The position numbers were made by a program, and so were the translations under genes. Shown piece after piece: positions 31,743-49,633 of a stretch of DNA of 64,000 nucleotides; positions within the stretch are counted from its first letter, which is position 1, and each line of letters begins with the position of its first letter. The notes beneath the pieces are model-generated. The model was not told the origin of the DNA and did not search any database. It worked only from the letters and a program-made list of their open reading frames with translations. The DNA is from Klebsiella pneumoniae (GTDB lineage: Bacteria; Pseudomonadota; Gammaproteobacteria; Enterobacterales; Enterobacteriaceae): assembly GCF_000742135.1 (NCBI RefSeq), contig NZ_KN046818.1, forward strand, positions 2,930,097 through 2,994,096, given 5' to 3'.

Positions 31743-33476
31743 GTGAATATTCAGGCTCTTCTCTCAGAAAAAGTCAGCCAGGCCCTGATCGCGGCAGGCG
31801 CGCCTGCCGATTGCGAACCCCAGGTCCGCCAGTCAGCAAAAGTTCAGTTCGGCGACTATCAGGCCAACGGCGTGATGGCTGTCGCCAAAAAGCTGGGTAT
31901 GGCGCCGCGACAACTTGCAGAGCAGGTACTGTCTCATCTTGACCTCAACGGCATTGCCAACAAGGTTGAAATCGCCGGGCCGGGCTTTATCAATATTTTC
32001 CTCGACCCCGCGTTTCTGGCGGACAACGTCAACCGCGCGCTGCAGTCTGAGCGCCTGGGCGTCACGAAACCACAGGCGCAGACTATCGTCGTCGACTACT
32101 CGGCACCCAACGTAGCGAAAGAGATGCACGTCGGCCATCTGCGTTCGACCATCATTGGCGATGCTTCAGTCCGTACCCTGGAGTTCCTGGGTCATAAGGT
32201 GATCCGCGCCAACCACGTCGGCGACTGGGGCACCCAGTTCGGGATGCTGATCGCGTATCTGGAAAAACAGCAGCAGGAAAACGCCGGCGAAATGGCCCTG
32301 GCCGACCTCGAAGGTTTCTATCGCGAAGCGAAAAAGCACTATGACGAAGACGAAGCCTTCGCCGAGCGCGCGCGCAGCTACGTGGTTAAGCTGCAGGGTG
32401 GTGATGAGTACTTCCTGCAGATGTGGCGTAAGCTGGTCGACATCACCATGTCGCAGAACCAGATCACCTACGATCGCCTGAACGTCACCCTGACCCGCGA
32501 TGACGTGATGGGTGAGAGCCTGTACAACCCGATGCTGCCGGGGATCGTCGCCGATCTGAAAGCCAAAGGGCTGGCGGTTGAGAGCGAAGGCGCTACCGTG
32601 GTCTTCCTTGATGAGTACAAAAACAAGGAAGGCGAACCGATGGGCGTCATCATCCAGAAAAAGGATGGCGGCTACCTCTATACCACCACCGATATCGCCT
32701 GTGCGAAGTATCGCTATGAAACGCTGCACGCCGACCGCGTGCTCTACTACATCGACTCTCGTCAGCACCAGCACCTGATGCAGGCGTGGACCATCGTGCG
32801 CAAGGCAGGCTACGTGCCGGACTCCGTGCCGCTGGAGCACCATATGTTCGGTATGATGCAGGGGAAAGACGGCAAGCCGTTTAAAACCCGAGCCGGCGGT
32901 ACCGTGAAGCTGGCGGATCTGCTGGACGAAGCGCTGGAGCGCGCCCGTCGCCTAGTGGCCGAGAAGAACCCGGATATGTCGGCTGACGAGCTGGAAAATC
33001 TGGCGAAAGTGGTGGGTATCGGCGCGGTTAAATATGCCGACCTGTCGAAAAACCGCACCACCGACTACGTCTTCGACTGGGATAATATGCTGGCGTTCGA
33101 AGGCAACACCGCGCCGTATATGCAGTATGCCTATACCCGCGTGCTCTCCGTGTTCCGCAAAGCCGGCATCGACGAAAACGCGATGATCGACGCGCCGGTG
33201 GTCATCGCCGAAGATCGCGAAGCTCAGCTGGCCGCGCGCCTGCTGCAGTTTGAAGAGACCCTCTCCGTGGTCGCTCGCGAAGGGACGCCGCACGTTATGT
33301 GCGCCTACCTCTACGATCTGGCGGGCCTGTTCTCCGGCTTCTACGAGCACTGCCCGATCCTCAGCGCGGAAAGCGAAGAGACCCGCAACAGCCGTCTGAA
33401 GCTGGCGCTGCTCACGGCGAAAACCCTCAAGCTGGGTCTCGATACCCTCGGTATCGAAACCGTCGAGCGTATGTAA
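31743..33476 (+). CDS. argS: Arginyl-tRNA synthetase
   Basis: 577 residues from a GTG start with TAAGG before it. It is a class Ia synthetase: an N-terminal Add1 domain, the HIGH-type motif in [16 protein letters not shown] (about residue 123), and a C-terminal DALR anticodon-binding domain. As usual in ArgRS, the KMSK loop is degenerate. In E. coli flagellar genes follow; here a sugar-use pair follows. Confidence 0.96.
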
Positions 33477-33481
33477 CAAGC

Positions 33482-33501
33482 AACCCGGCGAAAGCCGGGT
33501 T
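33482..33501 (+). terminator. argS terminator
   Basis: AACCCGGC and GCCGGGTT enclose a GAAA tetraloop, followed by AGTTTTATT, five bases beyond the argS stop. Confidence 0.88.
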
Positions 33502-33537
33502 AGTTTTATTCGGCGCCTCGCCAGCGGGGCGCCCTGC

Positions 33538-34677
33538 TCAGAAGTACTTGCGTAGATACTCCGTCAGACAAAGGATCGCCATCGCCTGACCGTAGGGCAT
33601 CGAGGTAAGCGGGATCTGGCGATAAAAGTCGAGGTCTGACCCCATCCCGGTGCCAAATGAGGTCTGCAGCAGCTCCCCCTGCGGCGAAATATTCTGCACA
33701 ATTCCGCGAATCGCTTTTTCAGCCACCCCGGCGTAGTGCTGCCCGACGTAACGCTTGCGCACCGCTTTGAGAATCCCGTAGGCAAAGCCGGCGGTCGCCG
33801 AGGCCTCAAGATAAGAGTGCGGGTCGTCCAGCAAGGTATGCCACAGGCCGCTGTCGTCCTGGCATTTTGCCAAGGCGGCAATCTGTGCGTCGAGGACTGT
33901 AATCAGATAGCGCCGTACCGCGTTCCCCTCGGGGAGATCCACCAGTTCCAGAAAATCCGGGATCACCATGGTGAGCCAGCTGTTGCCCCGCGCCCAACGC
34001 GCCCGGGCAAAGTTATGCCGCCCCTCATAGTTCCAGCCGTGAAACCACAGCCCGGTCTCCCGGTCCATCAGGTTCTGCACATGGAGCAGGAACTGGTAGG
34101 TTGCCTCCTCCACATACTGGGGGCGGTTAAGCAGCTTGCCAATTTTGGCTAACGGCAACACGGTCATCATCAGCGTATCATCCCACATTTGCTGATGGTT
34201 CTCCTCCGCCAGAGTCATGTGCTGCATACCGCCCTGCTCGGTGCGCGGTATCTCGTGCATCGCCCACTCCGCCCAGCTCTCCAGCCACGGCAGATACGCC
34301 ATACGGCCGGTCTCTTCAAAGCGGTAAGCCAGGGTCAGAAACGGGGCCATAGTATTAACGTTTTTGGTCGTTGCCCCCTCGGCGAAGCGGTCGGCAAACC
34401 AGCGATCGATGATATCACGCATCTCGATATCGCCGGTTTGCTGGTAATACTGATAGATGCCGTACAGCCCAACGCCGTGGGTCCACTCCCAGCCGGCCCA
34501 GCCTTTGGTATCGATCACGCGCCCGTCATCCAGGCGTAGTAAAAATTGCCCGCTCTCATCCTTAATATTCACCAGGTTTTGCGTCACGTTGCGGATCAGC
34601 GCCTGCAGTTCGCTACGGGCGATAAAACGCTCAGGCTGACGCAGTAATGGGCTATGTTTGACCGGCCAAACTTTCAT
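33538..34677 (-). CDS. rhiN: GH105 unsaturated rhamnogalacturonyl hydrolase (RhiN-like)
   Basis: 379 residues without a signal peptide, so cytoplasmic. The family is GH105 (YteR/YesR/RhiN), an alpha6/alpha6 barrel that adds water to the 4,5 double bond of an unsaturated galacturonate and so frees it from rhamnose. The catalytic Asp is in HQQMWDDTLMMT (W165-D166-D167); substrate-contact segments W60-W64 (DTKGWAGWEWTHGVGLYG) and HGWNYEGRHNFARARWARGN are intact. The start is 4 bp after the symporter stop, so it is the second gene of an operon. The free product would be 4-deoxy-5-ketouronate plus rhamnose. The link to rhamnogalacturonan rather than plain oligogalacturonide rests on the RhaS-type promoter. 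Confidence 0.82.
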   Translation of the reverse strand: MKVWPVKHSPLLRQPERFIARSELQALIRNVTQNLVNIKDESGQFLLRLDDGRVIDTKGWAGWEWTHGVGLYGIYQYYQQTGDIEMRDIIDRWFADRFAEGATTKNVNTMAPFLTLAYRFEETGRMAYLPWLESWAEWAMHEIPRTEQGGMQHMTLAEENHQQMWDDTLMMTVLPLAKIGKLLNRPQYVEEATYQFLLHVQNLMDRETGLWFHGWNYEGRHNFARARWARGNSWLTMVIPDFLELVDLPEGNAVRRYLITVLDAQIAALAKCQDDSGLWHTLLDDPHSYLEASATAGFAYGILKAVRKRYVGQHYAGVAEKAIRGIVQNISPQGELLQTSFGTGMGSDLDFYRQIPLTSMPYGQAMAILCLTEYLRKYF

Positions 34678-34681
34678 GTTG

Positions 34682-36265
34682 TTAACCTCGGGTATATGTC
34701 GAATTCAAAGCGCCGCCCTTAATGAGCGCCGGGGCAGCAGGTTTATGACGATTCAGATAGCCAATATTGTTATTGCCCCACAGACAGTCGTAAGGCATCC
34801 CCGCCAGCAGCTCGACCACCGCGCGGTGTTCCGCACTGGTCTGTTCCGACTGAGCGTAGCCGAGCTCGCGCATTCTGAGGGTCTCGCTGCGCAGGACGCT
34901 GTGGGTGCGCAGGTTGAGCTTGAAGCGCAGCGAGACGAGGAAGCCGCAGGCTAACACCACCAGAGTGCCGACGCTGAGGATCAGCAGAATGGTATGGCTG
35001 ACCCCTTCAGGCTGTATTTTTTGCCCGGAAACAAACCCCGACAACTGCATAATGATCCCCACCAGCATCACCGCCCCCGCCTGCGAGGCTTTGCGGGTCA
35101 GAGTCATGATGCCGGCAAAAATCCCCTCCCGGCGCTGGCCGGTGATCGCTTCGTCGACGTCGGCAATATAGGTGTAGGTATTCCACGGTACGTAATTTAT
35201 CCCGCCGCGTCCCAGTCCGGCGACAGCAGAGATGAGCAGCAATAAGGAATAGACGTCGCTCAGTCCGGCGTAATAGAGCAGCGCGTAGGAGAGTGAGCTC
35301 AGGCCAAACAGGACCACCACCATGCGGTACGACGGCGCGGGGCCAAAACGAATGCACAGCGGGATCATGGCGATTACTGCAATAAACTGGAAGATGGCCA
35401 TCGTCCCCAGCAGGTTCGAGGCGACGGCGGCTTCCTGCATCAGAACAAAGACCACGTAATAGGTAAACACGGCATTGAAGACGTCCTGGGCGATATAGCC
35501 CCCCAGATACATGCCGAGGTGCTGGCGGAAAATTTTTATCCGCAGCGTAGAACTCAGCTCAATCACCAGGCGATTGAGGCTCTGAGCAAGGGTTAAGTTT
35601 TGTTTTTCCGCTTCCGCCCGCAGGGCCGCTTCCGACCACGCCTCCCGCGGTCGTTCCCAGGTGAAACACCAGACCAGAGTCAGCATCACCGCGCACAGCA
35701 CCGAGAACACCAGACTGGCATAGAAGAACGAGCTGGCATTATCTTTGCCGAGCCAGGAGAGAAGGATCCCCGGCAGGAAGGAGGCTAAAATCGCCGACAT
35801 CTGCGCCATCGAAATGCGCGCGCCGGAGAATTTGGTTTTCTGTTTAAAGTCATCGGTCATCTCCGGCACCAGCGTCTCATAGGGCACCAGAATCATGGTA
35901 TAGACCATATCAAACAGCAGATAGGTCGCCAGGTAGTACCAGAAGCCCATCTCGCCGACCCACATCGCTGAATAGCTGAATACGCAGGGGATGCCGAGCA
36001 GAATAAAGAATTTTCTGCGGCCGAAGCGCTTACCAAGCCAGGTGGTGCCAAAGTTATCGGTGAGAAAGCCCATCAGCGGGCTTACCACCGCGTCCAGCAC
36101 GCGGGCGGCAGCAAAAATAAGCGTGGCCTCAATCGGGGTCAGTCCGCAAAAGGTCGTGTAAAAGTAGAGCAGCCATGCGGCGGTTAGCGCCGTCGTGCCG
36201 GCGCCGAGAAAATCGCCCGCGCCGTAGGCCAGATAGTTAGCCAGTCCAATTTTTCGTGTTTTCAT
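34682..36265 (-). CDS. rhiT: GPH-family symporter, rhamnogalacturonide type (RhiT-like)
   Basis: 527 residues with about 12 transmembrane helices, in the glycoside-pentoside-hexuronide:cation symporter family. Family marks are LTDNFGTTWLGKRFGRRKFF between helices 2 and 3 and YETLVPEMTDDFKQK. A tail of about 60 residues beyond the last helix (ending YDCLWGNNNIGYLNRHKP) is shared with the second GPH symporter in this window. In Dickeya RhiT imports unsaturated rhamnogalacturonides and rhiTN answer to RhaS, KdgR and CRP. Here a rhaBAD-like promoter lies 80-155 bp upstream and a KdgR-like box at 181 bp. Confidence 0.78.
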   Translation of the reverse strand: MKTRKIGLANYLAYGAGDFLGAGTTALTAAWLLYFYTTFCGLTPIEATLIFAAARVLDAVVSPLMGFLTDNFGTTWLGKRFGRRKFFILLGIPCVFSYSAMWVGEMGFWYYLATYLLFDMVYTMILVPYETLVPEMTDDFKQKTKFSGARISMAQMSAILASFLPGILLSWLGKDNASSFFYASLVFSVLCAVMLTLVWCFTWERPREAWSEAALRAEAEKQNLTLAQSLNRLVIELSSTLRIKIFRQHLGMYLGGYIAQDVFNAVFTYYVVFVLMQEAAVASNLLGTMAIFQFIAVIAMIPLCIRFGPAPSYRMVVVLFGLSSLSYALLYYAGLSDVYSLLLLISAVAGLGRGGINYVPWNTYTYIADVDEAITGQRREGIFAGIMTLTRKASQAGAVMLVGIIMQLSGFVSGQKIQPEGVSHTILLILSVGTLVVLACGFLVSLRFKLNLRTHSVLRSETLRMRELGYAQSEQTSAEHRAVVELLAGMPYDCLWGNNNIGYLNRHKPAAPALIKGGALNSTYTRG

Positions 36266-36346
36266 CGCCGTGATCCTGTGTCTTTTTTTAAAAGAACGCC
36301 GACAATCGTTCCGGATTTGCCACCGGAAGGGAGTGGGTACCTGGCT

Positions 36347-36422
36347 ACACTAAAAGCTGTGAAAGGAGGTTACCTTTGTACTTTTGCCACGGAACAGTCG
36401 CCGGTGGCAAAATGACAAAGAG
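36347..36422 (-). promoter_or_regulatory. RhaS-type promoter of rhiTN
   Basis: Two inverted arms, CTTTGTACTTTTGCCAC (36374-36390) and GTGGCAAAATGACAAAG (36404-36420), agree in 15 of 17 positions. Written as 17-bp half-sites ending in GCC they span 36372-36388 and 36406-36422 with 17 bp between. Each matches the E. coli rhaBAD RhaS half-site (ATCTTTCCCTGGTTGCC) in 10-11 of 17 positions. The proximal half overlaps by 4 bp a -35-like AGGTAA (36375-36370), 17 bp before TAGTGT (36352-36347). E. coli rhaBAD has the same layout, with a 16-bp gap. RhaS control is inferred. Confidence 0.65.
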
Positions 36423-36445
36423 ATGACGTCGCCACTTCACTCATT

Positions 36446-36464
36446 TATAAAACAGCATTTCTTT
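36446..36464. promoter_or_regulatory. KdgR-like operator near rhiT
   Basis: TATAAAACAGCATTTCTTT matches 17 of 19 positions of the KdgR consensus AATRAAAYRNYRTTTYATT with a perfect AAAYRNYRTTTY core. It lies 181 bp upstream of rhiT and 154 bp upstream of uspC. Confidence 0.55.
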
Positions 36465-36617
36465 TTAATCAAAAGACAGGTTCATTGATGTGATCTGGCT
36501 GGAAGGTCGCCGACTAACGAACAGGCTCGCAAATCCCGGGATCGGCACTTGCGCAGTCGGGGAAACAGGAGTAAAGAATGGAAGAAAGGGTTATTCCGCG
36601 TATCTCAAGGAGGCCAG

Positions 36618-37046
36618 ATGCCTTATACCCATCTGCTGGTTGCCGTCGCGCCAACGCCGGAGAGTCAGGTATTAATTAAAAAAGCGGTGTCGATAGCCCG
36701 CCCCGTTAACGCGAAGGTGAGCTTAATCACTCTCGCTACGGATCCGGAGCTGTATAACCAGTTCGCCGCACCGATGATGGAAAATCTGCGCGAAGTGATG
36801 CAGGAAGAGACGCGGGAGTTTCTCAATGAGCTGGCTCGCCACGCGGACTACCCAATAGAAAGAATGACCATCGCCTGCGGCGAGCTAGGCCATCATATTA
36901 AGGACTTCTGCCGGTCGCACCGTGTTGATCTGGTGATCTGCGGCAATCACAACCATTCCCTCTTCTCACGCGCCACCTGCTCGGCGAAAAGTATCGTCGG
37001 CAGCTGCGGCGTTGATGTGCTGTTGGTTTCCCTTGAAAAGGGCTAA
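36618..37046 (+). CDS. uspC: Universal stress protein C
   Basis: 142 residues from the ATG at 36618, which has a strong AAGGAGG. Universal stress protein fold starting MPYTHLLVAVAPTPESQVLI, with the family motif VICGNHNHS near residue 105 and a C-terminal VDVLLVSL. UspC supports UV and salt tolerance; in E. coli it also scaffolds the KdpDE system. It sits beside flhDC in E. coli, but flhDC is absent here. Confidence 0.93.
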   Translation: MPYTHLLVAVAPTPESQVLIKKAVSIARPVNAKVSLITLATDPELYNQFAAPMMENLREVMQEETREFLNELARHADYPIERMTIACGELGHHIKDFCRSHRVDLVICGNHNHSLFSRATCSAKSIVGSCGVDVLLVSLEKG

Positions 37047-37063
37047 CGCCGGTTAGCCCTTTT
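37036..37063. terminator. Bidirectional terminator between uspC and otsA
   Basis: AAAAGGGCTAAC (37036-37047) pairs with GGTTAGCCCTTTT (37051-37063). It includes the uspC stop codon and lies 7 bases beyond the otsA stop on the other strand. Confidence 0.85.
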
Positions 37064-37069
37064 CCTGAA

Positions 37070-39269
<2,200 letters not shown>

Positions 39270-39316
39270 TTATCATGGCCAGCCGAAGCTGGTTGTTAAT
39301 TATATGTGAGCCATGT

Positions 39317-39324
39317 AAGTATAG
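39317..39324 (-). promoter_or_regulatory. Sigma-S type -10 of otsBA
   Basis: On the - strand CTATACTT lies 60 bp before the otsB start. C before TATACT and T after it are RpoS promoter marks; RpoS control of otsBA is established in E. coli. Confidence 0.55.
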
Positions 39325-39358
39325 ACAGTGTGACCAACCTCGCCATTTTTGATAGTTA

Positions 39359-39383
39359 CCGCCAGCGAAACGGGCGCTGGCGG
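39359..39383 (-). terminator. Hairpin after araH
   Basis: CCGCCAGCG (39359-39367) pairs with CGCTGGCGG (39375-39383). No T-run follows on the - strand, so it may be a 3' stabilising stem rather than a full terminator for araFGH. Confidence 0.5.
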
Positions 39384-39418
39384 CAATTACTCTGTAAACT
39401 AAAAAGTTGGGTTAAAAT

Positions 39419-40402
39419 TCAGGCCGCACGTTTGGCTTTTTGTTTGTAGCGGTCGAAGATCACCGCCGCCAGCAGGATCACCCCGCGCACGACGTATTGT
39501 GAGAATGGCGAGATATTCAGCAGGTTCATCGCATTTTCCACGGTTCCGAGGATCAGGATCCCGGCCACCACGTAGGAGATCTTGCCGATCCCGCCCTTCA
39601 GCGACACCCCGCCCAGCACGCAGGCCGAAATAACAATCAGCTCATAGCCAATCGAGGTCATCGGCTGGCCGCTGGTCATGCGCGACGCCAGAATGATCCC
39701 CGCTGCGGCCGATACCAGACCGGAGAGCACAAAGATAATAATCTTGGTGCGCACCACCGGGACGCCGGCCAGGCGCGCCGCCTCTTCATTGCCGCCAATA
39801 GCCAGCGTATTACGGCCAAAGGTGGTTTTGTTTAGTAATAATCCGAAAACCACCAGGCAGGCGACGGTCAGCCAGATCGGCGCCGGCAAACCAAACCAGT
39901 TGGCATAGCCGAGGGTGAAGAAACGTTCATCTTCGATCCCCACCGCTTTGCCGTCGGAGATAATATAGGCCAGGCCGCGGACAATCTGCATGGTGGCCAG
40001 CGTGGTGATCAGCGCGTTGATCTTAAGGCGCGCAATGACAAAGCCGTTAACCAGGCCACTAAGCGCCCCCAGCAACAGGCCTGCGGCGATCCCCAGCCAC
40101 AGGCTTTCGCTGAGATTAATCACCACCGCGGTGGTGACCCCGGCGCAGGCGATAACCGACGCCACCGACAGGTCAAAATCGCCGGAGGCCAGGCAAAACA
40201 GCATGCCGCAGGCCACCATCCCGGACATCGAGATCGCCAGCCCCAGCCCTTTCATATTGACGAATGAAGCAAAGTTGGGCACAAAAATCACACAGCCGAT
40301 AAACAGCACCGCAAACACCACCAGCATGCCAAACTGATCCCAGATGCGGGCAAAGCTAAAGGTTGAGCGGGTAGCCCCGGACGTAGTCACTGATGACATC
40401 AT
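39419..40402 (-). CDS. araH: L-arabinose ABC transporter permease AraH
   Basis: 327 residues with about ten transmembrane helices, in the AraH/RbsC permease family. Highly similar to E. coli AraH: LAISMSGMVACGMLFCLASGDFDLSV and the coupling segment ALITTLATMQIVRGLAY, GNEEAARLAGVPV. It ends the araFGH operon; 11 bp separate its start from the araG stop. Confidence 0.95.
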   Translation of the reverse strand: MMSSVTTSGATRSTFSFARIWDQFGMLVVFAVLFIGCVIFVPNFASFVNMKGLGLAISMSGMVACGMLFCLASGDFDLSVASVIACAGVTTAVVINLSESLWLGIAAGLLLGALSGLVNGFVIARLKINALITTLATMQIVRGLAYIISDGKAVGIEDERFFTLGYANWFGLPAPIWLTVACLVVFGLLLNKTTFGRNTLAIGGNEEAARLAGVPVVRTKIIIFVLSGLVSAAAGIILASRMTSGQPMTSIGYELIVISACVLGGVSLKGGIGKISYVVAGILILGTVENAMNLLNISPFSQYVVRGVILLAAVIFDRYKQKAKRAA

Positions 40403-40413
40403 TTACTCCTTAC

Positions 40414-41928
40414 TCAGGCGACAGCCTGGCTCACTGTTGGCATCGCAAGGCTTAACGTCTGCTGTTCATTGGCTTCTTCATGCAGCAGTTCGCCGGCGAT
40501 TTGTCCTTCGCGCATCACCACGATGCGGTCAGCGACGCCCAGCACTTCCGGCAGGTCGCTGGAGGCAAACACCACGGCGACACCAGAGGCGGCGAGGCCA
40601 TAGATCACATTGTAAATTTCATGTTTGGCGCCGACGTCGATGCCGCGGGTTGGCTCATCAAGCAGGATCACCTTCATCTCTTCCGACAGCCAGCGGCCAA
40701 GGATCGCTTTCTGCTGGTTGCCGCCCGACAGGTTCATAATCAGCTGTTCCGGGCCCGGCGTTTTAATATTCAGCGACTGGATATGTTGATCGGCGTTGTC
40801 CGCCTCCCAGGCGTTGTTGATCAGGCAGCCAGCGTGAATATGCTTGCGCCGGGCGCTGATATTGATGTTATCGCGCACGGAATGCACCGGAATAATCCCC
40901 TCCGCTTTACGATCCTCCGGGCACAGCATCATCCCGGCCTGGATGGCCTGGGCCGGTTTGCGAATGGAGACGGGCTGGCCATCGATATACACCTGACCGC
41001 CGGTTATCTGCGTGCCGCCAAACAGGCCTTTCATTAGTTCGCTGCGCCCGGCACCCACCAGTCCGAACAAACCGACAATTTCACCGCTGCGCACCGAGAG
41101 ACTAACCGGCGTGCGCACGCCCGGCGCTTTGACCTCCTCCAGGCGCAGCCGCTCCTCGCCATAGGGGCGAGGCTTCCAGCCATAAATATCGCCCAGATTG
41201 CGGCCTACCATTGCCTGGACCAGGGCGTCGTGGCTGACGCTCGGCATATCGTCAAAGGTGCAAACGTAGCGGCCATCTTTAAAGACGGTGATGGCATCGC
41301 TGAGGGCAAAAATCTCTTCCATCCGGTGTGAAACATAGATGATGACCCTTCCCTCCTCCCGCAACTCGCGGATGACGCGAAACAGGTTGTCGATCTCTCT
41401 GGCGGAGAGCGAGCTGGTCGGCTCATCGAACGCGATAATCTTGGCGTTACGCGCCAGCGCTTTGGCAATCTCCACCATCTGCCATTGACCAATGGAGAGA
41501 TATTTCAGCGGCGTCTCCGGGTCGATATCCAGACCCAGATGCTCCAGCTGCAGGCGGGCCTCATAGTTGAGCAGCGAGCGATTGACGATGCCGCCTCTGT
41601 GCGGCAGCTGACCGAGATAGATATTTTCGGCGACGGTCATCTCCGGGATCAGATGCAGCTCCTGGTAGATGATTGCCACGCCGGCATTCAGCGCCTCCAT
41701 GGTATTGGCGAATGCCATCTGCTGGCCGCCGATCTGCAGATGGCCCGCGGTCGGGATATAGTTGCCGCTGAGAATTTTCAACAGCGTCGATTTGCCTGCG
41801 CCATTTTCGCCCATCAGCGCGTGGATCTGTCCTGGGTAGCAGTCAAAACTGATATCGGACAAGGCCTTTACGCCAGGGAACGTCATGGTGATGCCGCGAA
41901 ATGAGAGATAAGGGGTAGACTGTTGCAT
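40414..41928 (-). CDS. araG: L-arabinose ABC transporter ATPase AraG
   Basis: 504 residues from [19 protein letters not shown], the E. coli length. Two fused ABC domains: the first with Walker [10 protein letters not shown] and Walker [12 protein letters not shown], the second with a degenerate Walker A ([10 protein letters not shown]) but intact signature [15 protein letters not shown] and [14 protein letters not shown], as usual for sugar importers of this class. It energises AraH. Confidence 0.95.
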
Positions 41929-41990
41929 AACGACTCCGCTCTTCTGCACTCAGCCCCCGCGCCGCGGCGGGGGCCAGTTTAATCAGGCTG

Positions 41991-42971
41991 TTACAGCCCT
42001 TTTTTCGCCAGCTCTTCTTTGAAGTTATCGCGGGTAATCAGCACCACATCGGTCACCGCCGTGAACTTCGGCGGCTCGACGCCCTTGGTGACCCAGTTGT
42101 ATAGCATTTCGCTGGTTTTGTAGCCGTGGATATCCGGGCTTGGCAGCAGAGAACCATAGAAGCCGGTCGGCTGCGCCTTCGACAGTTCGTTGACGGCATC
42201 CACGCCGTTGATGCCGATGCCAATCACATCGGGAGCTTTAAAGCCCTGACCTTCGGTCGCGCGCACGCCGCCGAGGACGGTGTTGTCGTTCATCCCGACG
42301 ATCAGCCAGTGTTTAACCTGCGGATGTTGGACCAGCATCGAGTTACCGGCGTCGAACGCTCCCGGGATATCGTTGGATTTTGTCGGCACGCGGTAGATTT
42401 GCGCGTCCGGGAAGCCGGCCGCCTTCAGGGCATCGATGGAGCCGGTGGTGCGACGGCGCGCGGTATCCAGCTCATCGGCGGTGATCGCCATTACGGCGGT
42501 GTCTTTGACATCCCAGCCGCGCTTTTGCATCTCTTTATAGAGTTCCTGCCCCTGACGGGCGCCAATTTCGCTCGCCGCCATCATCACCAGCGGTACGCTC
42601 TCCATCGGTTTGCCCTTCGCATTGACGAACTGGTCATCGACGGTAATCACCTTCATGTCATAGCCACGCGCTTTGGCGACAATCGCCGACCCGAGCTTGG
42701 GATCGGGGGTACAGATGACAAAGCCCTTCGCGCCGCTGGCCGCCAGGCTGTCAATGGCATTCAGGGTTTTCTCTCCATCCGGGACCGCAATTTTAATAAC
42801 GTCAAAGCCTAAATCTTTTCCTGCTTTATCAGCAAATTTCCACTCAGTCTGAAACCATGGCTCTTCCGGCTGTTTCACCAGAAAACCCAGTTTAAGATTT
42901 TCCGCCATAGCTGATTGTGACATAACCGCAGCGAGACCAATGGCCGCCAGCGCTTTAGTAAATTTGTGCAT
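41991..42971 (-). CDS. araF: L-arabinose-binding periplasmic protein AraF
   Basis: 326 residues with a signal peptide (MHKFTKALAAIGLAAVMSQSAMA). Mature ENLKLGFLVKQPEEPWFQTEWKF matches the arabinose-binding protein, with ligand contacts such as the K and E of VKQPEEP and DQFVNAKGK, and RRRTTGSIDALKAAG. It delivers arabinose to AraGH. The upstream region carries AraC and CRP motifs. Confidence 0.95.
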   Translation of the reverse strand: MHKFTKALAAIGLAAVMSQSAMAENLKLGFLVKQPEEPWFQTEWKFADKAGKDLGFDVIKIAVPDGEKTLNAIDSLAASGAKGFVICTPDPKLGSAIVAKARGYDMKVITVDDQFVNAKGKPMESVPLVMMAASEIGARQGQELYKEMQKRGWDVKDTAVMAITADELDTARRRTTGSIDALKAAGFPDAQIYRVPTKSNDIPGAFDAGNSMLVQHPQVKHWLIVGMNDNTVLGGVRATEGQGFKAPDVIGIGINGVDAVNELSKAQPTGFYGSLLPSPDIHGYKTSEMLYNWVTKGVEPPKFTAVTDVVLITRDNFKEELAKKGL

Positions 42972-43096
42972 GGTAAACTCCAGCTTTAATTCGCTTTCAT
43001 GTAGGGAAAAATCGGAATTAACAATTTAATCGGCATCAAAACAAGGCATTAGAAAAATCGCATTCCCCACTGCCGTTGTTAGAGTAGTAATACCCG

Positions 43097-43129
43097 GAAA
43101 TTATTTCTCCATACGAGAGCATTATCACA
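43097..43129 (-). promoter_or_regulatory. araF promoter-proximal AraC half-site and CRP half-site
   Basis: A perfect TCCATA (43108-43113), the strongest half of the AraC motif, is followed by a CRP half TCACA (43125-43129; TGTGA on the - strand). The order promoter, AraC, CRP, AraC matches what is known for E. coli araFGH. The TAGC half is not matched here (GAAA). Confidence 0.45.
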
Positions 43130-43161
43130 TCGCGGAATTACAGTAATTGCGTACATACATT

Positions 43162-43199
43162 TAGCAAAAAATGACATAAAAAATGACACAATTGTCATA
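43162..43199 (+). promoter_or_regulatory. Weak tandem AraC half-sites
   Basis: TAGC-N7-GACATA (43162-43178) is followed exactly 21 bp later by a second half ending GTCATA (43183-43199). A 21-bp step is the AraC direct-repeat spacing. Confidence 0.45.
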
Positions 43200-43215
43200 C
43201 AATTTTACCGGGACA

Positions 43216-43253
43216 TAGCAGGATCATCTATACCATCAGCAGGCTTATCCTTG
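43216..43253 (+). promoter_or_regulatory. Strong tandem AraC half-sites
   Basis: TAGC-AGGATCA-TCTATA (43216-43232) matches 9 of 10 fixed positions of TAGC-N7-TCCATA. CAGC-AGGCTTA-TCCTTG (43237-43253) follows after 4 bp, giving the 21-bp step and the strong-weak pairing of E. coli araI1-I2. It points away from araF, toward ftnB. Confidence 0.6.
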
Positions 43254-43862
43254 TGTTGTCAGAGGATGTTTAACGGTGGGTTACAGCACTGTTATCATCA
43301 GCGATTGACGGCGTTGCTGCGGGCGATCGCCTGTGCGCCACTCAAATGGCAATCCACCTCGCACCGCTGAGCCACATGGCCCGCTTAATATCGCGAAAAA
43401 ACGGATCTTTGGCGTAATTTATTCCGAATAGAAAAAATATATTCCTCTTGATAAAAGCGCCTGCAACAAAAAATAAAAATAATGATCATCAACCTGAAAC
43501 ATTACTAATGAAATAACTTATTCCGTTCTCTTCTACGACGAATCTCGTAGTCAAATACTTATATCTTATAACCAATCTGAAACCAGCGAGCCCCTGCCAA
43601 CGGCGCACAATCTCAGCCCTGGTAGTTTGCACAAATAATGGTGTAACAAAACGTAAATTACCGCGCTTGAGAGTTTTCTTAATTTCGTTGAGCGAGTATT
43701 CTTAAATCGTCGGCAAATGGAAAAAATACCCGACTCATACGGAATGTGTAGAGTTTTATTATTCTGCAACAGTGCCGCGTGTCACTATTTTATCTTGTAG
43801 TTATCCGCAGGATCCGCTGACGCGCACCAGTAACCCCTTCCCGGTTAATAAGGATATTTTTT
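43254..43862. other. AT-rich intergenic region upstream of ftnB
   Basis: 609 bp with no credible gene. It holds a short palindrome, CTACGA/TCGTAG (43533-43538 and 43545-43550), and many A/T runs. A possible 67-codon - strand frame (43566-43769) lacks a start signal and looks random. The ftnB leader carries AAGGA before the ATG. Confidence 0.6.
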
Positions 43863-44372
43863 ATGGCAGTTCCAGGAATGGCACAAAAGCTAAACACCCA
43901 AATGAATCTTGAGTTTCACGCCTCTAACGTTTACCTGAACTTAAGTGAGTGGTGCGCCCGACATCGCTTCGACGGCGCCGCGACGTTTCTGCGCACCCGC
44001 GCGCAAAGCAGCATCACCCTCACTATGCGCGTATTTGACTACCTGAAAAAAGCCGGCAGCTGGCCGATCGTCAATCCCGACCACGCCTGTAACCCTGAGT
44101 GCACCTCGCTGGAAGATCTGTTTACCCAAACCCTGAGCGATTACCAACAGCGCAGTCGTCTGCTGAGCGGTCTCGCTCAGGAAGCCAAAGCGCAAAGCGA
44201 TGACAGCACCTGGCGGTTTCTCACGCTGTTGGCGGAAGAGCAGCAGCAGGATGGCCTGCTATTGCAAAGCGTGCTTGAGGAAATTCGTAATGCCGATAAA
44301 GCCGGTCTCGGGATGGAGCAGACCGATCGGCGTCTGATGGCTATCGTTGGAGAAGCGCAGAAAGCGCATTAA
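43863..44372 (+). CDS. ftnB: Ferritin-like protein FtnB
   Basis: 169 residues with a four-helix ferritin fold. Compared with FtnA in this same window, E17 is kept (NLEFHASNVYL), but the second ferroxidase cluster [11 protein letters not shown] of FtnA reads RAQSSITLTMR here, so E49, E50 and H53 are replaced by S, S and L. Loss of ferroxidase ligands is a known trait of FtnB. Its role is thought to be iron supply for cluster repair or virulence rather than bulk storage. Near position 74, DHACNPECTS has two Cys absent from E. coli FtnB. Confidence 0.9.
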   Translation: MAVPGMAQKLNTQMNLEFHASNVYLNLSEWCARHRFDGAATFLRTRAQSSITLTMRVFDYLKKAGSWPIVNPDHACNPECTSLEDLFTQTLSDYQQRSRLLSGLAQEAKAQSDDSTWRFLTLLAEEQQQDGLLLQSVLEEIRNADKAGLGMEQTDRRLMAIVGEAQKAH

Positions 44373-44532
44373 TCAAGCCTTTATCGCTCTGCCAGGGGGA
44401 GCGCGTCTGCGCTGCCCCGCCCGGTTTATTAATCCATTACGTCTATTTTTTCTCCCCTATTATTCCTTTCAAGAATAAAAAAGTTTTAACTCGATCCCAT
44501 TCCCTCATCACCGTTACCCCATAAGGGGGATT

Positions 44533-44548
44533 AGTGAGCGCGGTCACT
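44533..44548. promoter_or_regulatory. CRP site upstream of the second GPH symporter
   Basis: AGTGAGCGCGGTCACT keeps GTGA-N6-TCAC, 8 of 10 CRP core positions, with T-rich flanks. It lies 68 bp before the ATG. Confidence 0.6.
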
Positions 44549-44570
44549 TTTTGACGAACCATAAAGAAAT

Positions 44571-44589
44571 ATAAAAACAGTGTTTCAAA
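44571..44589. promoter_or_regulatory. KdgR-like operator of the second GPH symporter
   Basis: ATAAAAACAGTGTTTCAAA has a perfect RAAAYRNYRTTTYA core and 15 of 19 matches to the KdgR consensus. It lies 27 bp before the ATG, where a repressor would block transcription. Confidence 0.6.
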
Positions 44590-44615
44590 AATATAAAACA
44601 CGAGGTTTATTTTTT

Positions 44616-46179
44616 ATGGCTAGATACACGGCTTCAGCCTCTGAAGGGCTGCAGGGAAGACCGATCTTGTTACGCCATCAGTTAGCCTACGGCGGCGGAA
44701 ATCTGTTAGGGAGCGGCGCACTGGCGATAAGCGGCGCATGGCTACTCTATTTTTATACGACCTTTTGCGGCCTGACGCTGATCGAGGCCTCATTTATCTT
44801 CTCCGTCGCCAGCATCATTGACGCTATCAGCAACCCGCTGATGGGCTATCTGACGGATAATTTTGGCAAAACGCGCTTGGGCAAGCGCTTCGGCCGCCGG
44901 CGTTTCTTTCTGCTAATCGGTATTCCGCTGATGATGTTCTACCCGCTGCTGTGGGTGGAAGGCCTGAGTTTCTGGTACTACCTTAGCACCTATGTGGTGT
45001 TTGAGATCATCTACACCTCTATCATGGTGCCTTATGAAACGCTGGCGACAGAGATGACCGATGATTTCTCACTGCGTTCAAAACTGACCGGCTATAAAGC
45101 TATCTTTGGTAAGCTGGCCAACTTCCTCGCGGCGTTTATTCCCGGCCAGTTCATTCTGCTGTATGGCAAAGATTCTGCCACCCCTTTCTTCCTCACCGGT
45201 CTGACCTATGGCGCGATCCTGATCGTCGCTATTTCCTGCCTGTGGTTGTGCAGCTGGGAGCGTGAGCGCGGGGAAGAGGTGGAAACCAGCGCGAAAAAAG
45301 GACTGCTGAGCACCCTGCTGTCGCTGGCGAAAGATATGCGTTCGACTTTTTATCTACGCGTATTCCGCAAACATCTTGGTATGTACCTGTGCGGCTTTGG
45401 CGCGGAATGGCTGTTTGCCTCCATCTTCACCTATTTCGTGATCTTCGTTCTACAACACGATCCAGCGATGGTGGCCGGGCTGAACAGCCTGAACTCGATT
45501 CTGCAGCTGATCTCTACGGCGCTGTTTATCGGCCTGTGCGTGAAAAAAGGGCTTCAGCAAACCCTATATCCTGGCGCTGGGGATCGTCATTTTCGCGGTT
45601 CTGCTGTATACCTCGCTGTGGTTTTTCCATCTACCGTCCGGCCTGGCGACAGTGCTGATGTTCGGCATTACCGTGCTGTTCGGCCTGGGTACCGGCGGGG
45701 TTTACTATATACCCTGGACCGTTTACACCTTCCTGGCCGATGTCGATGAGATCTACACCGGACGCCGGCGGGAAGGGATCTATGCCGGCGCCATGACCTT
45801 CTCAGGAAAAATTCTTCGCTCGATTGTGGTGTTCTCGATGGGGGCGATCCTGAGCTTCTACGGTTTCCAGTCAAAAGCGCACAGCCAACCGGAAAGCGCG
45901 GTGACCGCTATCGCAGTGGTATTCTGCGTCGGGGTGATCGCATTAGCCCTGGCCGCCATCGTCTTCAGCAAGCAGATGAAGCTGGACCGGAAGGCCCATC
46001 TGGTGGTGCTGCAGGAAGTCGCGCGGATAAAAGCGGGCGGCAAAATTAGCGATATTGCGCCGGACGTGCGGGTTATCGTGGAGGATCTGGTCGGCCATCG
46101 CTACGAAGAGTGCTGGGGCAACAGCAAATTGTTCAAAGATGCTGCCCCTGCGCCTGCGCAGACCGTCGTTTCCCATTAA
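44616..46179 (+). pseudogene. GPH-family symporter with a frameshift (TogT/RhiT-like)
   Basis: ATG at 44616 has GAGG ten bases upstream. The first 311 codons give a GPH symporter closely related to the rhiT product (AWLLYFYTTFCGLT, NPLMGYLTDNFGKTRLGKRFGRRRFF). At 45543-45551 (AAAAAAGGG) the frame shifts by one base; the next frame continues the protein without loss (GFSKPYILALG, FGLGTGGVYYIPWTVYTF, then VGHRYEECWGNSK). One base fewer would restore about 520 residues. Otherwise the frame ends at 45749 after about 60 foreign residues. No other lesion is seen, so this is a very recent mutation or a sequencing error. Control sites suggest CRP activation and KdgR repression. Confidence 0.85.
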
Positions 46180-46185
46180 AGAAGA

Positions 46186-46212
46186 AGGCCCCGCCGGTAT
46201 CCGGCGAGGCCT
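46186..46212 (-). terminator. yecJ terminator
   Basis: A 12-bp stem with one G-T pair (AGGCCTCGCCGG/CCGGCGGGGCCT on the - strand) and a 3-base loop is followed by TCTTCTTT. It also lies just after the symporter stop. Confidence 0.75.
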
Positions 46213-46216
46213 GGTA

Positions 46217-46468
46217 TTAATGCGTTTCTTCCTGTGGAGTAAACTTCAGCTCAATCAACGCGATCGCTTTTTGCACCGCGCGAAGGGTCACCGGATCGGC
46301 AGAGGCCGGATGGCTGGCGAAGTCGATAGCTTTCAGCTGAGTGGTCATTTTTTCACGCACTTCCACCGGCGCAATGACGTCAATGACATCGAGGATCTGT
46401 TTGATAACCAGCTGGCAGGCAACCACATCGGAAACCAGCTCGTCGTGTTCGGTAAGATGTTGAGACAT
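46217..46468 (-). CDS. yecJ: YecJ, DUF2766 small protein
   Basis: 83 residues, very similar to E. coli Yec[33 protein letters not shown] and [16 protein letters not shown]. It is a soluble helical protein of unknown function. AAAAGGAG precedes the ATG. It is divergent from the exporter gene at 46619. Confidence 0.9.
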
Positions 46469-46522
46469 TAATTACTCCTTTTTTCAGGAGCGTAATAGTA
46501 CCCTAAATCGTTAACGATAATA

Positions 46523-46547
46523 AAACCTGCCGTCGCAGGTTTTTTTA
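46523..46547. terminator. Terminator in a divergent spacer
   Basis: AAACCTGC (46523-46530) and GCAGGTTT (46535-46542) enclose CGTC and are followed by more T. It stands between the starts of yecJ (-) and the exporter (+), with no gene reading into it on either strand. A TCGTTAACGA palindrome (46508-46517) lies beside it. Confidence 0.75.
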
Positions 46548-46618
46548 TCTACCCTACTGGCTGGCGGGTCGTCTCCTGCCGCTTTGCACAGGATCACACT
46601 CTTGATGGCAGTGACAAC

Positions 46619-48040
46619 ATGAATACCGCGATCTCTTCCCGCGATGAACGTGCTTTTTCAGCGCCGGCGCTGCTGGTGGCAGGTGCCTTTTTTATGGAGT
46701 TTCTCGACGGGACGGTGATCGCCACCGCCCTGCCCGATATGGCGAGGGATTTTGGCGTCACCGCGGTCGAACTGAATATCGGCATCAGCGCCTATCTGAT
46801 TACCCTTGCGGTCCTGATCCCGGCCAGCGGCTGGATCGCCGATCGCTTCGGCGCCCGGGCTATTTTTACTCTCGCCCTGGCGATCTTTACCCTTGCCTCG
46901 GTCTTCTGCGGCCTCTCCACCGAGGTGCATATCTTTGTCGCCATGCGTATCCTTCAGGGAGTCGGCGGCGCGCTGATGGTCCCCGTTGGTCGCCTGGCGG
47001 TGCTACGCACCACGCCGAAACACCAGCTGATCAAGGCCATCGCCACCCTGACCTGGCCAGCGCTGGTGGCCCCCATTATCGGCCCGCCTTTGGGCGGCTT
47101 TATAACCCGCTACGCCAGCTGGCACTGGATCTTCTTTATCAATGTCCCGCTGGGCCTTGCCGCCATCATCCTTTCGCTGCGCATTATCCCTGATATTCGC
47201 GAAACGGAACGGCGCTCCTTCGATCTCAGCGGATTTATCACTACCTCGGTCGCGATGGTCAGTCTGGTGACCGCGATGGAGCGGCTCGGCGATCGCCAGC
47301 CGCAGATCTGGCCGACGCTGGCTCTCGCCGCGCTTGGCTTCGGCTGTCTGTTATATTCCATTCGTCATTTCCGCCGGGCGGCGGCGCCTATGGTTCGTCT
47401 CGACGCCCTGCAGGTACCGACGTTCCGGGTGACAATGTACGGCGGCTCGTTGTTCCGGGCCTCCATCAGCGCGGTGCCTTTTCTGCTCCCCCTGCTGTTC
47501 CAGGTGGGATTCGGTATGGATCCTTTTCATTCCGGCCTGCTGGTGCTGGCGGTGTTTGTCGGTAATTTAACCATTAAACCCGCCACCACACCGCTCATTC
47601 GCTGGCTGGGCTTTCGTCGGCTATTGCTGATCAATGGCGCGTTGAACGTCTGTTCGCTGCTGGCTTGCGCGCTGCTTACGCCGCAGACGCCGGTCTGGGC
47701 CATCATGCTGATCCTTTATCTCGGCGGGGTGTTTCGCTCAATCCAGTTTACCGGTGTAAGCACGCTGGCCTTCGCCGATGTCCCCGCCGCGCAGATGAGC
47801 GATGCTAATACGCTGTTCAGTACCGCGTCGCAGCTGGCGGTAGGGCTGGGGATCACGCTCGGGGCGATTGGCATTCGCCTGGGCGAGCAGGTCGGCGACT
47901 GGCTGCATCTTACTGAACTACCGGGGATCAGCTTCCGCCTGTCGTTTGTGTTTATCGCCTTGATCTGTCTGGTAGGGATGATCGACAGCCTGCATCTGGC
48001 CAAAACGGCCGGCAGCAGCGTGTCGGAGAAGAAGAAATAG
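46619..48040 (+). CDS. MFS exporter, EmrB/QacA (DHA2) family, MdtD-like
   Basis: 473 residues with about 13-14 transmembrane helices. DHA2 marks are FMEFLDGTVIATALPDMARDFG (motif D1), GWIADRFGARAIF (motif A), RILQGVGGALMVPVGRL (motif B) and GPPLGGFITRYASWHWIFFINVPLG (motif C, antiporter). It resembles MdtD, a proton-coupled exporter; the substrate is unknown. The start codon lacks a good Shine-Dalgarno. It is not in E. coli at this site (yecR lies there), so it is lineage-specific. Confidence 0.85.
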   Translation: MNTAISSRDERAFSAPALLVAGAFFMEFLDGTVIATALPDMARDFGVTAVELNIGISAYLITLAVLIPASGWIADRFGARAIFTLALAIFTLASVFCGLSTEVHIFVAMRILQGVGGALMVPVGRLAVLRTTPKHQLIKAIATLTWPALVAPIIGPPLGGFITRYASWHWIFFINVPLGLAAIILSLRIIPDIRETERRSFDLSGFITTSVAMVSLVTAMERLGDRQPQIWPTLALAALGFGCLLYSIRHFRRAAAPMVRLDALQVPTFRVTMYGGSLFRASISAVPFLLPLLFQVGFGMDPFHSGLLVLAVFVGNLTIKPATTPLIRWLGFRRLLLINGALNVCSLLACALLTPQTPVWAIMLILYLGGVFRSIQFTGVSTLAFADVPAAQMSDANTLFSTASQLAVGLGITLGAIGIRLGEQVGDWLHLTELPGISFRLSFVFIALICLVGMIDSLHLAKTAGSSVSEKKK

Positions 48041-48060
48041 AAGAAAAAATAAACGACGGA

Positions 48061-48081
48061 AGGGCCAGCGGCGCTGGCCCT
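48061..48081. terminator. Hairpin between the exporter and the isomerase gene
   Basis: AGGGCCAGC and GCTGGCCCT enclose GGC. The two genes converge on it; no T-run follows on either strand within five bases, so strength is uncertain. Confidence 0.5.
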
Positions 48082-48089
48082 GATGACGG

Positions 48090-48728
48090 TTAAGCGACGA
48101 TCTGGCGAACAAAGTCTTCGATTGCTTTATCCTGGCAGTTTTCGAAGAAGCACTGCTGGAAGCGTGGGCCGGAGACTGCGGTTTTCACCAGCTGCGGATC
48201 GATGGCGCGCAGGGTATCGAGGTAGTTCTCTTTTACTACTGCTGCTTTGACCTGGTTGAGGATCCCGGCATTGCGCACCTGCGGTTCTTTGCGCTCCGGC
48301 GGATAGCCTTCGCCGTTGCGGCCGGTAAAGGCTTTTTCAAAGATAAACCGCACATTCAGTTCGGCGCCCCAGCCAAAGCCTTTGGCAAACGGCAGCGACA
48401 GCGCATTACCGTTGTTGATCTGGGCAAACAGGAACGCATCCGCCGGATCGATACAGTAGCCGCAGACCACGCCCGGATGGATGTTCAGCGACATCAGCGC
48501 CCCCTGACCGGTACCGCAGCCGGTGACCACGAAGTCAACTGCTTTCGAATTCAGCAGAATACTGGCCATGATCCCAAGATGGATGTAGGTCAGATGATGA
48601 TCGTTCTCATCGCTCATGCCGACGTTATAGACCGGGAATCCTTTTTCGTCGGCAACCGCGTTAAGCTCCTTGAGGATGATGGCGTTTTTGTTCGCTTGGC
48701 TGTTCTCCATCATCAGTGCAATCTTCAT
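48090..48728 (-). CDS. RpiB/LacA/LacB-family isomerase (possibly DhuI-type ketouronate isomerase)
   Basis: 212 residues from MKIALMMENSQANKNAIILK, with AGGAGAAT before the ATG. The RpiB fold is clear: nucleotide-like start, active-site Cys in VVTGCGTGQGA (C71) and INNGNALSLP. It is longer than RpiB (about 150), with a C-terminal extension of 70 residues (GRNGEGYPPERKEPQ onward). This length fits DhuI-like isomerases that convert 4-deoxy-L-threo-5-hexosulose uronate, replacing KduI. A KdgR-like box lies upstream. It could instead act on a pentose or galactose phosphate; no lac or tagatose genes are nearby. Confidence 0.75.
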   Translation of the reverse strand: MKIALMMENSQANKNAIILKELNAVADEKGFPVYNVGMSDENDHHLTYIHLGIMASILLNSKAVDFVVTGCGTGQGALMSLNIHPGVVCGYCIDPADAFLFAQINNGNALSLPFAKGFGWGAELNVRFIFEKAFTGRNGEGYPPERKEPQVRNAGILNQVKAAVVKENYLDTLRAIDPQLVKTAVSGPRFQQCFFENCQDKAIEDFVRQIVA

Positions 48729-48819
48729 GGTTATTCTCCTGAATGCTGTGCGGGCCTGCCCGCAGAATGTCATTGACGTTGACTGCACTTTACTACCTTG
48801 AAAACAAACTTTCAAATTT

Positions 48820-48838
48820 TATGAAAAGTTGTTTTATA
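48820..48838. promoter_or_regulatory. KdgR-like operator of the isomerase gene
   Basis: TATGAAAAGTTGTTTTATA matches 16 of 19 KdgR consensus positions. On the - strand it overlaps a TATAAA -10-like stretch, about 92 bp before the start codon. The region is A/T-rich, so a chance match is more likely than at the other two boxes. Confidence 0.4.
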
Positions 48839-49135
48839 ATTTACGCAGTGCTTCACACTTTCGCAGGCTCCCCCTGTCTGTTGACCTCAGCCCTCTGCAT
48901 GCTGGCGAATCCGCTTCGTCCTCCCTTACCACCCGCCGGCGACAAAGTCCTGACCGCCCAGGCAATAATGAATAATAAATTAAAAGCATTCTCATTTATT
49001 ATTAAACTGCCAATGCGTGTTATTCCCATTAGCATTTTAAATAAAACATTTTTAAATTTACTTTTTGCAAATAATTAAATAACAAATTATAGTGGCAGCC
49101 AATAACATCTATTATTTAATTCCAGGAGTGCAACG
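48839..49135. other. AT-rich region upstream of ftnA
   Basis: No gene seen. AATAATAAAT (48971-48980) and ATTTATTATT (48994-49003) form a perfect 10-bp inverted repeat with a 13-bp gap. E. coli ftnA is activated by Fur, which binds a long A/T-rich tract and displaces H-NS; this tract is a candidate for the same control. Confidence 0.5.
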
Positions 49136-49633
49136 ATGCTGAAAACGGACATGATTGACAAACTGAATGAACAGATGAATCTTGAACTCTATTCTTCTCT
49201 TCTTTATCAGCAGATGAGCGCCTGGTGCAGTTACCACAGTTTTGAAGGCGCCGCGGCCTTCCTGCGTCGCCATGCTCAGGAAGAGATGACCCATATGCAG
49301 CGCCTGTTCGACTATCTAACCGACACCGGCAGCCTGCCGCGGATCAACGCTATCGCCTCCCCGTTTGCCGAATATGCCTCACTCGACGAGCTGTTCCGCC
49401 AGACCTACGAGCATGAGCAGCTGATCACGCAAAAAATAAATGAACTGGCGCACGCGGCCATGACCAGCCAGGATTACCCGACCTTTAATTTCCTGCAGTG
49501 GTATGTTGCTGAACAGCATGAAGAAGAGAAATTATTTAAATCGGTGATCGATAAACTGACCCTCGCTGGAAAAAGCGGCGAAGGTCTGTACTTTATCGAT
49601 AAAGAGCTGGCTACCCTCGACGCGCAGAATTAA
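49136..49633 (+). CDS. ftnA: Non-heme ferritin FtnA
   Basis: 165 residues with a complete ferroxidase centre: E17 in [18 protein letters not shown]49, E50 and H53 in [17 protein letters not shown]94 region in [13 protein letters not shown], and Q127/E130 region in [16 protein letters not shown]. It forms a 24-mer that stores iron. CCAGGAGTG precedes the ATG. Contrast FtnB at 43863, which lacks several of these ligands. Confidence 0.95.

Follow-up and report, generated by a model that had tools for sequence, protein, structure and literature searches.

A probable KdgR regulon of three scattered units in Klebsiella pneumoniae, with two proposed uptake branches and a candidate DhuI-type isomerase in place of KduI

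Three scattered units in a 64-kb stretch of the Klebsiella pneumoniae genome (the window, G000:C1:2930097-2994096; genome of 5,545,784 bases, 5 contigs, completeness 100) each carry a box upstream that resembles the operator of the repressor KdgR. They are rhiTN, a symporter gene and a GH105 hydrolase gene, a second GPH symporter gene (symporter 2), and dhuI, which encodes a protein of the RpiB family. With good confidence, we consider these units to be members of the KdgR regulon that would serve two uptake branches for pectin fragments, both leading into one trunk through a DhuI-type isomerase. Below, G numbers denote genomes, G000 being the genome of the window, and L numbers denote loci.

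Predicted KdgR sites before three scattered units

The sites concerned are as follows (no strand assigned).
36446-36464: predicted KdgR box of rhiTN, matrix score 19.8
44571-44589: predicted KdgR box of symporter 2, matrix score 20.4
48820-48838: predicted KdgR box of dhuI, matrix score 22.6, the highest in the window
48798-48816: weaker second KdgR-like palindrome by dhuI, score 12.5, rank 7 of 64 kb

The weight matrix was trained on nine sites, all outside the window: six of the seven perfect matches to the KdgR pattern TRAAAYRNYRTTTYA in the genome and three one-mismatch neighbours. These were picked by pattern and neighbouring genes and are not a random sample; the perfect site near an EAL gene was excluded. 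In the matrix scan the three boxes take ranks 1-3 of the 64 kb, the next score is 14.9, and 60 Markov-1 simulations put the expected number of scores as high as that of the third box at 0.02 per 64 kb. They also lie exactly where the original prediction had seen 19-mers of this type and are the sole matches to TRAAAYRNYRTTTYA at one mismatch or fewer in the window, each with exactly one mismatch; the reversed pattern, used as a control, gave no match there at the same threshold. Across the whole 5.5-Mb genome the pattern has 64 sites at this threshold and the reversed pattern 42, so TRAAAYRNYRTTTYA alone is not specific. Seven of the 64 sites are perfect by pattern search, and family scans place them beside a YhcH/YjgK/YiaL gene, the KdgM-family porin gene ompK26, ogl/kduD, an ATP-binding cassette (ABC) transporter gene, an Asp/Glu racemase-like gene, a MATE gene and an EAL gene. 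A perfect site at L089:4425 (G000:C1:1846424) stands some 180 bp upstream of a gene with an EAL domain.

One training site can be identified as the ompK26 operator, since in L085 the distance from the end of the sequence TGTTT to ompK26 is 42 bp. This agrees with the site in K. pneumoniae at which a 5-bp deletion relieves the gene of repression by KdgR and which was also tested by electrophoretic mobility shift assay (PMC9040587). An intact gene for the repressor itself is situated some 13.5 kb to the left of the window (NF011671, 474.9 bits, cut-off 275). A KdgR-like site (18.3) at L114:13702-13720 of the same genome, about 140 bp upstream of kdgR, gives a hint of autoregulation.

The boxes are conserved in related genomes. 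Among 20 Klebsiella genomes (19 relatives and the own genome), the rhiT box stands at a constant offset in 17/17 loci (16 at one mismatch or fewer, one at two mismatches; in G004 the rhiT gene falls beyond the region that was fetched, and it was not counted), the symporter 2 box in 18/18 and the dhuI box in 20/20. The fraction of columns identical to the window is 0.93 (rhiT), 0.96 (symporter 2) and 0.98 (dhuI) inside the boxes, and 0.63, 0.52 and 0.59, respectively, outside them. Beyond the genus, 80 named dhuI loci were collected, Klebsiella included, of which 79 were scored (L174 was left out because of its short upstream region); some of the named Klebsiella loci come from the same genomes as the genus sample, and the two samples are not independent. 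A box scoring at least 15 within 400 bp upstream of dhuI was found in 66 of the 79 loci. Shuffling of the upstream regions brought the mean down to 1.1 of 79, and a scan within the gene gave 0 of 79.

The weaker palindrome at 48798-48816 overlies the -35 element of a promoter-like sequence (TTGAAA-17-TAAAGT at 48815-48787); it may be a chance match, and we treat it as weak evidence. In Dryocola a strong KdgR-like site (26.5, L202:10130-10148) lies about 14 bp before an orthologue of the major facilitator superfamily (MFS) efflux gene at window positions 46619-48040, and the window gene is without such a site.

Two probable, separable uptake branches

The second symporter unit has the following features.
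44534-44547, no strand assigned: CRP-like core GTGA-N6-TCAC upstream of symporter 2, a conserved block in 18 loci
44616-45749, plus strand: 5' part of the TogT-like GPH symporter 2, 377 amino acids to the first stop (PF13347)
45652-46179, plus strand: 3' part of symporter 2 in another frame, 175 amino acids (PF13347)

The CRP site that had been described before this gene was recovered, and the single gene described at 44616-46179 turned out to be two frames. PF13347 matches both parts, and TIGR00792 stays below its cut-off. Comparison with the relatives places the loss of frame between 45561 and 45651. An error of sequencing or assembly may have produced the break in a gene that the organism carries intact, an explanation to which we would give somewhat less than an even chance: the protein is 520-522 amino acids long in all 17 Klebsiella relatives that carry it, its Erwinia orthologue is intact, and the upstream KdgR box and CRP core are kept here, all of which suit an error, and the near-complete state of the assembly speaks against one.

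As to the function of symporter 2, a homologue (E at most 1e-150) occurs in 18 of 119 family genomes, and all 18 have Ogl, which is present in 34 of the 119 (Fisher 2.4e-12, a value that ignores relatedness). The two genes are 243-518 bp apart in five of the 18 genomes and within 2.5 kb in two more; in the other 11, the own genome included, the symporter gene lies farther from ogl or on another contig. The Erwinia persicina locus L213 has the order kduD, dhuI, ogl (reverse), symporter, PelX-like protein (817 bits, under the cut-off of 1490) and KdgM-like porin, with KdgR boxes at 2701, 5925 and 6328; E. rhapontici (L216) shows the same order for the five genes searched and also has three boxes. 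Because of this co-occurrence with Ogl and the order of the Erwinia cluster, the evidence speaks for symporter 2 being an oligogalacturonide carrier like TogT, an oligogalacturonate/cation symporter (PMC7843439).

Two side observations concern this unit. An ABC transporter (a SBP_bac_1 protein and a UgpA-like permease below its cut-off) lies beside KdgR-like sites at L085:14013-18238; it may be a second importer of oligogalacturonides and could then compensate for the broken symporter. Two ferritin-like genes (window 43863-44372 and 49136-49633) flank symporter 2 and dhuI, and the former varies more among Klebsiella (62-95% identity aligned, no match in L080) than the latter (93-98%).

The rhiTN unit, whose two genes are single open frames of the families first proposed for them, comprises the following.
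33538-34677, minus strand: rhiN-like GH105 hydrolase, 379 amino acids (Pfam PF07470, 376 bits, GH88/GH105 fold)
34682-36265, minus strand: rhiT-like GPH/MFS_2 symporter, 527 amino acids, adjoining rhiN (PF13347, 159 bits)
36374-36388 and 36406-36420, minus strand: RhaS-like inverted repeat upstream of rhiT, two exact CTTTNNNNNNTTGCC copies 17 bp apart

Among the regions fetched from relatives, 16 carry rhiT and rhiN, and in each of these the two genes lie together. We take CTTTNNNNNNTTGCC to be the RhaS half-site pattern. Two copies in one 330-bp upstream region were seen in 0 of 2000 shuffles, and the repeat is a conserved block in 17 loci. An exact copy also lies between rhaB and rhaS of the own genome, before rhaB, and this 5.6-kb locus has 13 weaker matches at one or two mismatches; the genome holds RhaS (NF010028, 525.5 bits), RhaB and RhaA. 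Given the repeat upstream of rhiT, and since RhaS controls rhiTN in Erwinia chrysanthemi (PMC3870299), the unit probably needs a rhamnose signal in addition to relief from KdgR.

The substrate of this branch is addressed by the hydrolase. In its WDD motif one Asp aligns with the WLD of the YteR-like structure 4WU0 and presumably has a catalytic role. The GH105 protein is expected to release 4-deoxy-5-ketouronate from unsaturated rhamnogalacturonide. It is unlikely to be a beta-galactosidase or an unsaturated glucuronyl hydrolase in a rhiTN branch that feeds on another glycan, although NCBIfam NF051900 (beta-galactosidase BglB) matches it at 474.8 bits, above the cut-off of 420. For 3PMM, a K. 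pneumoniae structure in the PDB to which the GH105 protein is nearly identical, structure matching by one method gave a weak preference for unsaturated glucuronyl hydrolase, whereas a second method assigned unsaturated rhamnogalacturonyl hydrolase (PMC5980557). The latter assignment, the aligned Asp, the RhaS-like repeat together with the KdgR box upstream, and the function of RhiTN in Erwinia chrysanthemi/Dickeya (PMC3870299) all argue for the rhamnogalacturonide substrate.

The different co-regulator sites and the phyletic patterns indicate that RhiT/RhiN and symporter 2/Ogl are separable branches. A single linear pathway was considered and rejected: symporter 2 and Ogl are absent from G001 and G005, and rhiT and rhiN from other genomes, G021 and G023, in the fetched 20-kb region, which was the part of these two genomes searched for them. 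The original prediction of one unsaturated-uronate pathway under KdgR thus holds for the regulon, for the uronate theme and for an isomerase placed before KduD, KdgK and Eda, but has to give way to two branches, one with a frame-broken symporter, where it drew one linear chain.

A candidate DhuI-type isomerase and the missing KduI

Two window genes belong to the trunk.
48090-48728, minus strand: dhuI-like isomerase, RpiB family, 212 amino acids (PRK09273, similarity to gbs1892)
8809-9450 (8812-9450 without the stop), minus strand: eda, aldolase of 2-keto-3-deoxy-6-phosphogluconate, last step of the chain (TIGR01182, 281 bits; PRK05718, 336 bits)

Both had been named in the original prediction, and their families were borne out. 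The protein at 48090-48728 matches PRK09273 at 372 bits (cut-off 137) and aligns over its full length with gbs1892 (PDB 4U8E), with 116 of 211 aligned columns identical (55%, E 2.2e-76). We take gbs1892 to be DhuI of Streptococcus agalactiae. DhuI of that species is an RpiB-family enzyme, the non-homologous isofunctional counterpart of KduI (PMC12838403). From this likeness, the protein seems to be a DhuI-type isomerase that replaces KduI.

The distribution of KduI agrees with such a role. No KduI was found in the own genome, where the sole PF04962 (KduI/IolB) locus is IolB by NCBIfam (TIGR04378, 334 bits); the same PF04962 search does match E. coli, which served as a positive control. All 20 Klebsiella genomes have dhuI and an IolB-like PF04962 match at 366-372 bits, only the own one being named by NCBIfam, and a true KduI was additionally found in three of them (G001, G005 and G024). 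Full-length Ogl is present in 18 of the 20, of which 17 are without a KduI match and G024 is the exception. The other trunk enzymes are in place: KduD and KdgK are encoded outside the window, as had been supposed, with a KdgR-like box at kduD and one at 22.6 upstream of kdgK, whose product is 84% identical to that of E. coli (NF052444, 524 bits), and the matrix scan of the window showed no box before eda near the scores of the three boxes. Since KduD, KdgK and Eda are present and KduI was not found, DhuI would fill the one gap, and the isomerase becomes the key gene.

Gene neighbourhoods connect dhuI with the same route. kduD adjoins dhuI in seven of the 80 named loci (5 Rahnella, 2 Erwinia), and in the four of these that were looked at (L201, L206, L213 and L216) both genes are on the same strand with a box 141-144 bp before kduD. 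L161, titled Chryseobacterium, has an Enterobacteriaceae-like dhuI locus at 93% and is probably a mislabelled or contaminated assembly.

We find it improbable that the RpiB-family protein is a sugar-phosphate isomerase of the galactose-6-phosphate or ribose-5-phosphate type with loose ties to uronates. Such an enzyme would fit the Pfam LacAB_rpiB match, and a K. pneumoniae MGH 78578 protein with 3ONO as its best structure is filed as galactose-6-phosphate isomerase in PMC7146069; this is probably the same gene, but the identity to 3ONO is given there as 69.5% and amounts to 72.4% (152 of 210 columns) for the window protein. However, two RpiB models score far under their cut-offs (19.7 against 138.65 and 33.1 against 135), the RpiB structures 3S5P and 1O1X reach 26-27 bits against 259 for gbs1892, and the kduD-dhuI and ogl-dhuI gene pairs as well as the KdgR boxes point to uronate metabolism.

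For the genus as a whole, we regard the following as fairly probable when taken jointly: that most Klebsiella depend on DhuI alone in a pectin-fragment pathway under KdgR control, this RpiB-fold enzyme having displaced KduI; that a KdgR operator has long stood before dhuI in Enterobacteriaceae and Yersinia; that the generic or 'galactose-6-phosphate isomerase' label is wrong; and that dhuI is derepressed in the described kdgR-disrupted clinical isolates.

The four accessory genes had also been described as absent from the E. coli order. This holds for them as a block, because no E. coli record covers 80% of window positions 33000-49000 (the 20 best places listed cover 26-27% and end near 43.2 kb), and it is a statement about the block, single genes not having been searched in E. 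coli.

Proposed pathway and points that weigh against it

In the scheme that we propose, KdgR would sit on the three boxes and leave them as 2-keto-3-deoxygluconate accumulates. In the first branch, which RhaS would co-activate, RhiT would import unsaturated rhamnogalacturonide and RhiN would cleave this to give rhamnose and 4-deoxy-5-ketouronate. In the second, the OmpK26 porin, the TogT-like symporter 2 (frame-broken in this sequence) and Ogl would yield 4-deoxy-5-ketouronate from oligogalacturonides. DhuI would then isomerise 4-deoxy-5-ketouronate in place of KduI, and KduD, KdgK and Eda would complete the trunk to pyruvate and glyceraldehyde-3-phosphate. IclR-family operators can resemble each other and the KdgR sites here are predicted from sequence, yet we see hardly any chance that another IclR-type regulator is the main protein bound at the three boxes, because the matrix holds the ompK26 operator, shown to bind KdgR, and sites before kduD. 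The latter gene is up in kdgR-disrupted isolates of K. pneumoniae (PMC8612250).

Several results weigh against this KdgR-DhuI scheme, in addition to the NF051900 match of the GH105 protein given above. Of 312 footprint windows, 9, 7 and 15 (for rhiT, symporter 2 and dhuI, respectively) are conserved as much as the boxes or more, which means that other conserved blocks exist. Before dhuI, 13 of the 79 loci are without a box at score 15; in seven of these (5 Rahnella, 2 Erwinia) kduD directly precedes dhuI, and the other six (C. sedlakii, Intestinirhabdus, two Enterobacter and two Siccibacter) are unexplained. Symporter 2 is out of frame in this sequence, the translation of 44616-46176 containing stops. 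A figure legend in PMC8612250 names KduI among the KdgR targets of K. pneumoniae. Finally, 30 of 247 genomes of the order have both DhuI and KduI, more than chance. A strict exclusion of KduI by DhuI was therefore rejected for the order (30 with both, 23 with DhuI only, 17 with KduI only, 177 with neither), and the positive association implies that the two are not simple alternatives. KduI was counted here as a PF04962 match with E at most 1e-20 and under 240 bits; none of these matches is named by NCBIfam, and five of them, at 226-239 bits, form a separate group.

Significance and comparison with known systems

That KdgR controls ompK26 and kduD in K. pneumoniae has already been published (PMC9040587, PMC8612250). 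To this we add the KdgR-like boxes that precede dhuI in several genera, the gap left by KduI in Klebsiella, the association of symporter 2 with ogl, and the frame break. Among the literature matches listed, no title or opening of an abstract dealt with KdgR control of dhuI or with Klebsiella dhuI. Rodionov et al. reportedly named possible non-orthologous KduI substitutes in Vibrio in 2004; that work may hold part of these findings, and we therefore claim no priority. The system is an extension of a known kind of regulon and not a new one, and for specialists it is regulon completion rather than a surprise. Nevertheless, a gene present in 20 of 20 Klebsiella genomes searched thereby receives a function that can be tested. 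The reading also offers an account of how 17 of these 20 genomes, which have Ogl but no KduI match, could finish oligogalacturonide catabolism, and it ties dhuI to a repressor whose disruption has been reported in clinical isolates that show altered porin expression (PMC8612250).

Compared with the KdgR regulon of Dickeya, Pectobacterium and Yersinia, the system shares the operator type AAATGAAACAnTGTTTCATTT (PMC5559549), a kdgM-family porin, ogl, kduD and kdgK, and differs in that no KduI was found here, DhuI is present instead and the genes are scattered. It has the repressor and operator type in common with the regulation of ompK26 and kduD described for K. pneumoniae, whose ompK26 site is among the training sites, whereas rhiTN, symporter 2 and dhuI are not treated in the available parts of PMC9040587 and PMC8612250, and the latter lists KduI. 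The hydrolase unit resembles the RhaS-controlled RhiTN of Dickeya/Erwinia chrysanthemi in its symporter, GH105 hydrolase and RhaS-like site, a likeness by family and context; a KdgR box is the difference here. Symporter 2 is comparable to TogT as a predicted cation symporter for oligogalacturonates with ties to pectin genes (PMC7843439), likewise by family and context. The isomerase is like DhuI of S. agalactiae in its RpiB-like family and its 55% identity over the full length, gbs1892 being taken as that DhuI; unlike there, its reductase partner here would be KduD, its control would be by KdgR, and its companions are pectin rather than glycosaminoglycan genes. A further parallel is the kduD-dhuI (type H) cluster, described for 41 strains, 40 of them Pseudomonadota, next to 144 cluster-less strains with dhuI, of which 141 have kduD (PMC12838403): the enzyme pair is the same, and in Klebsiella it would be held together across separate loci by KdgR boxes.

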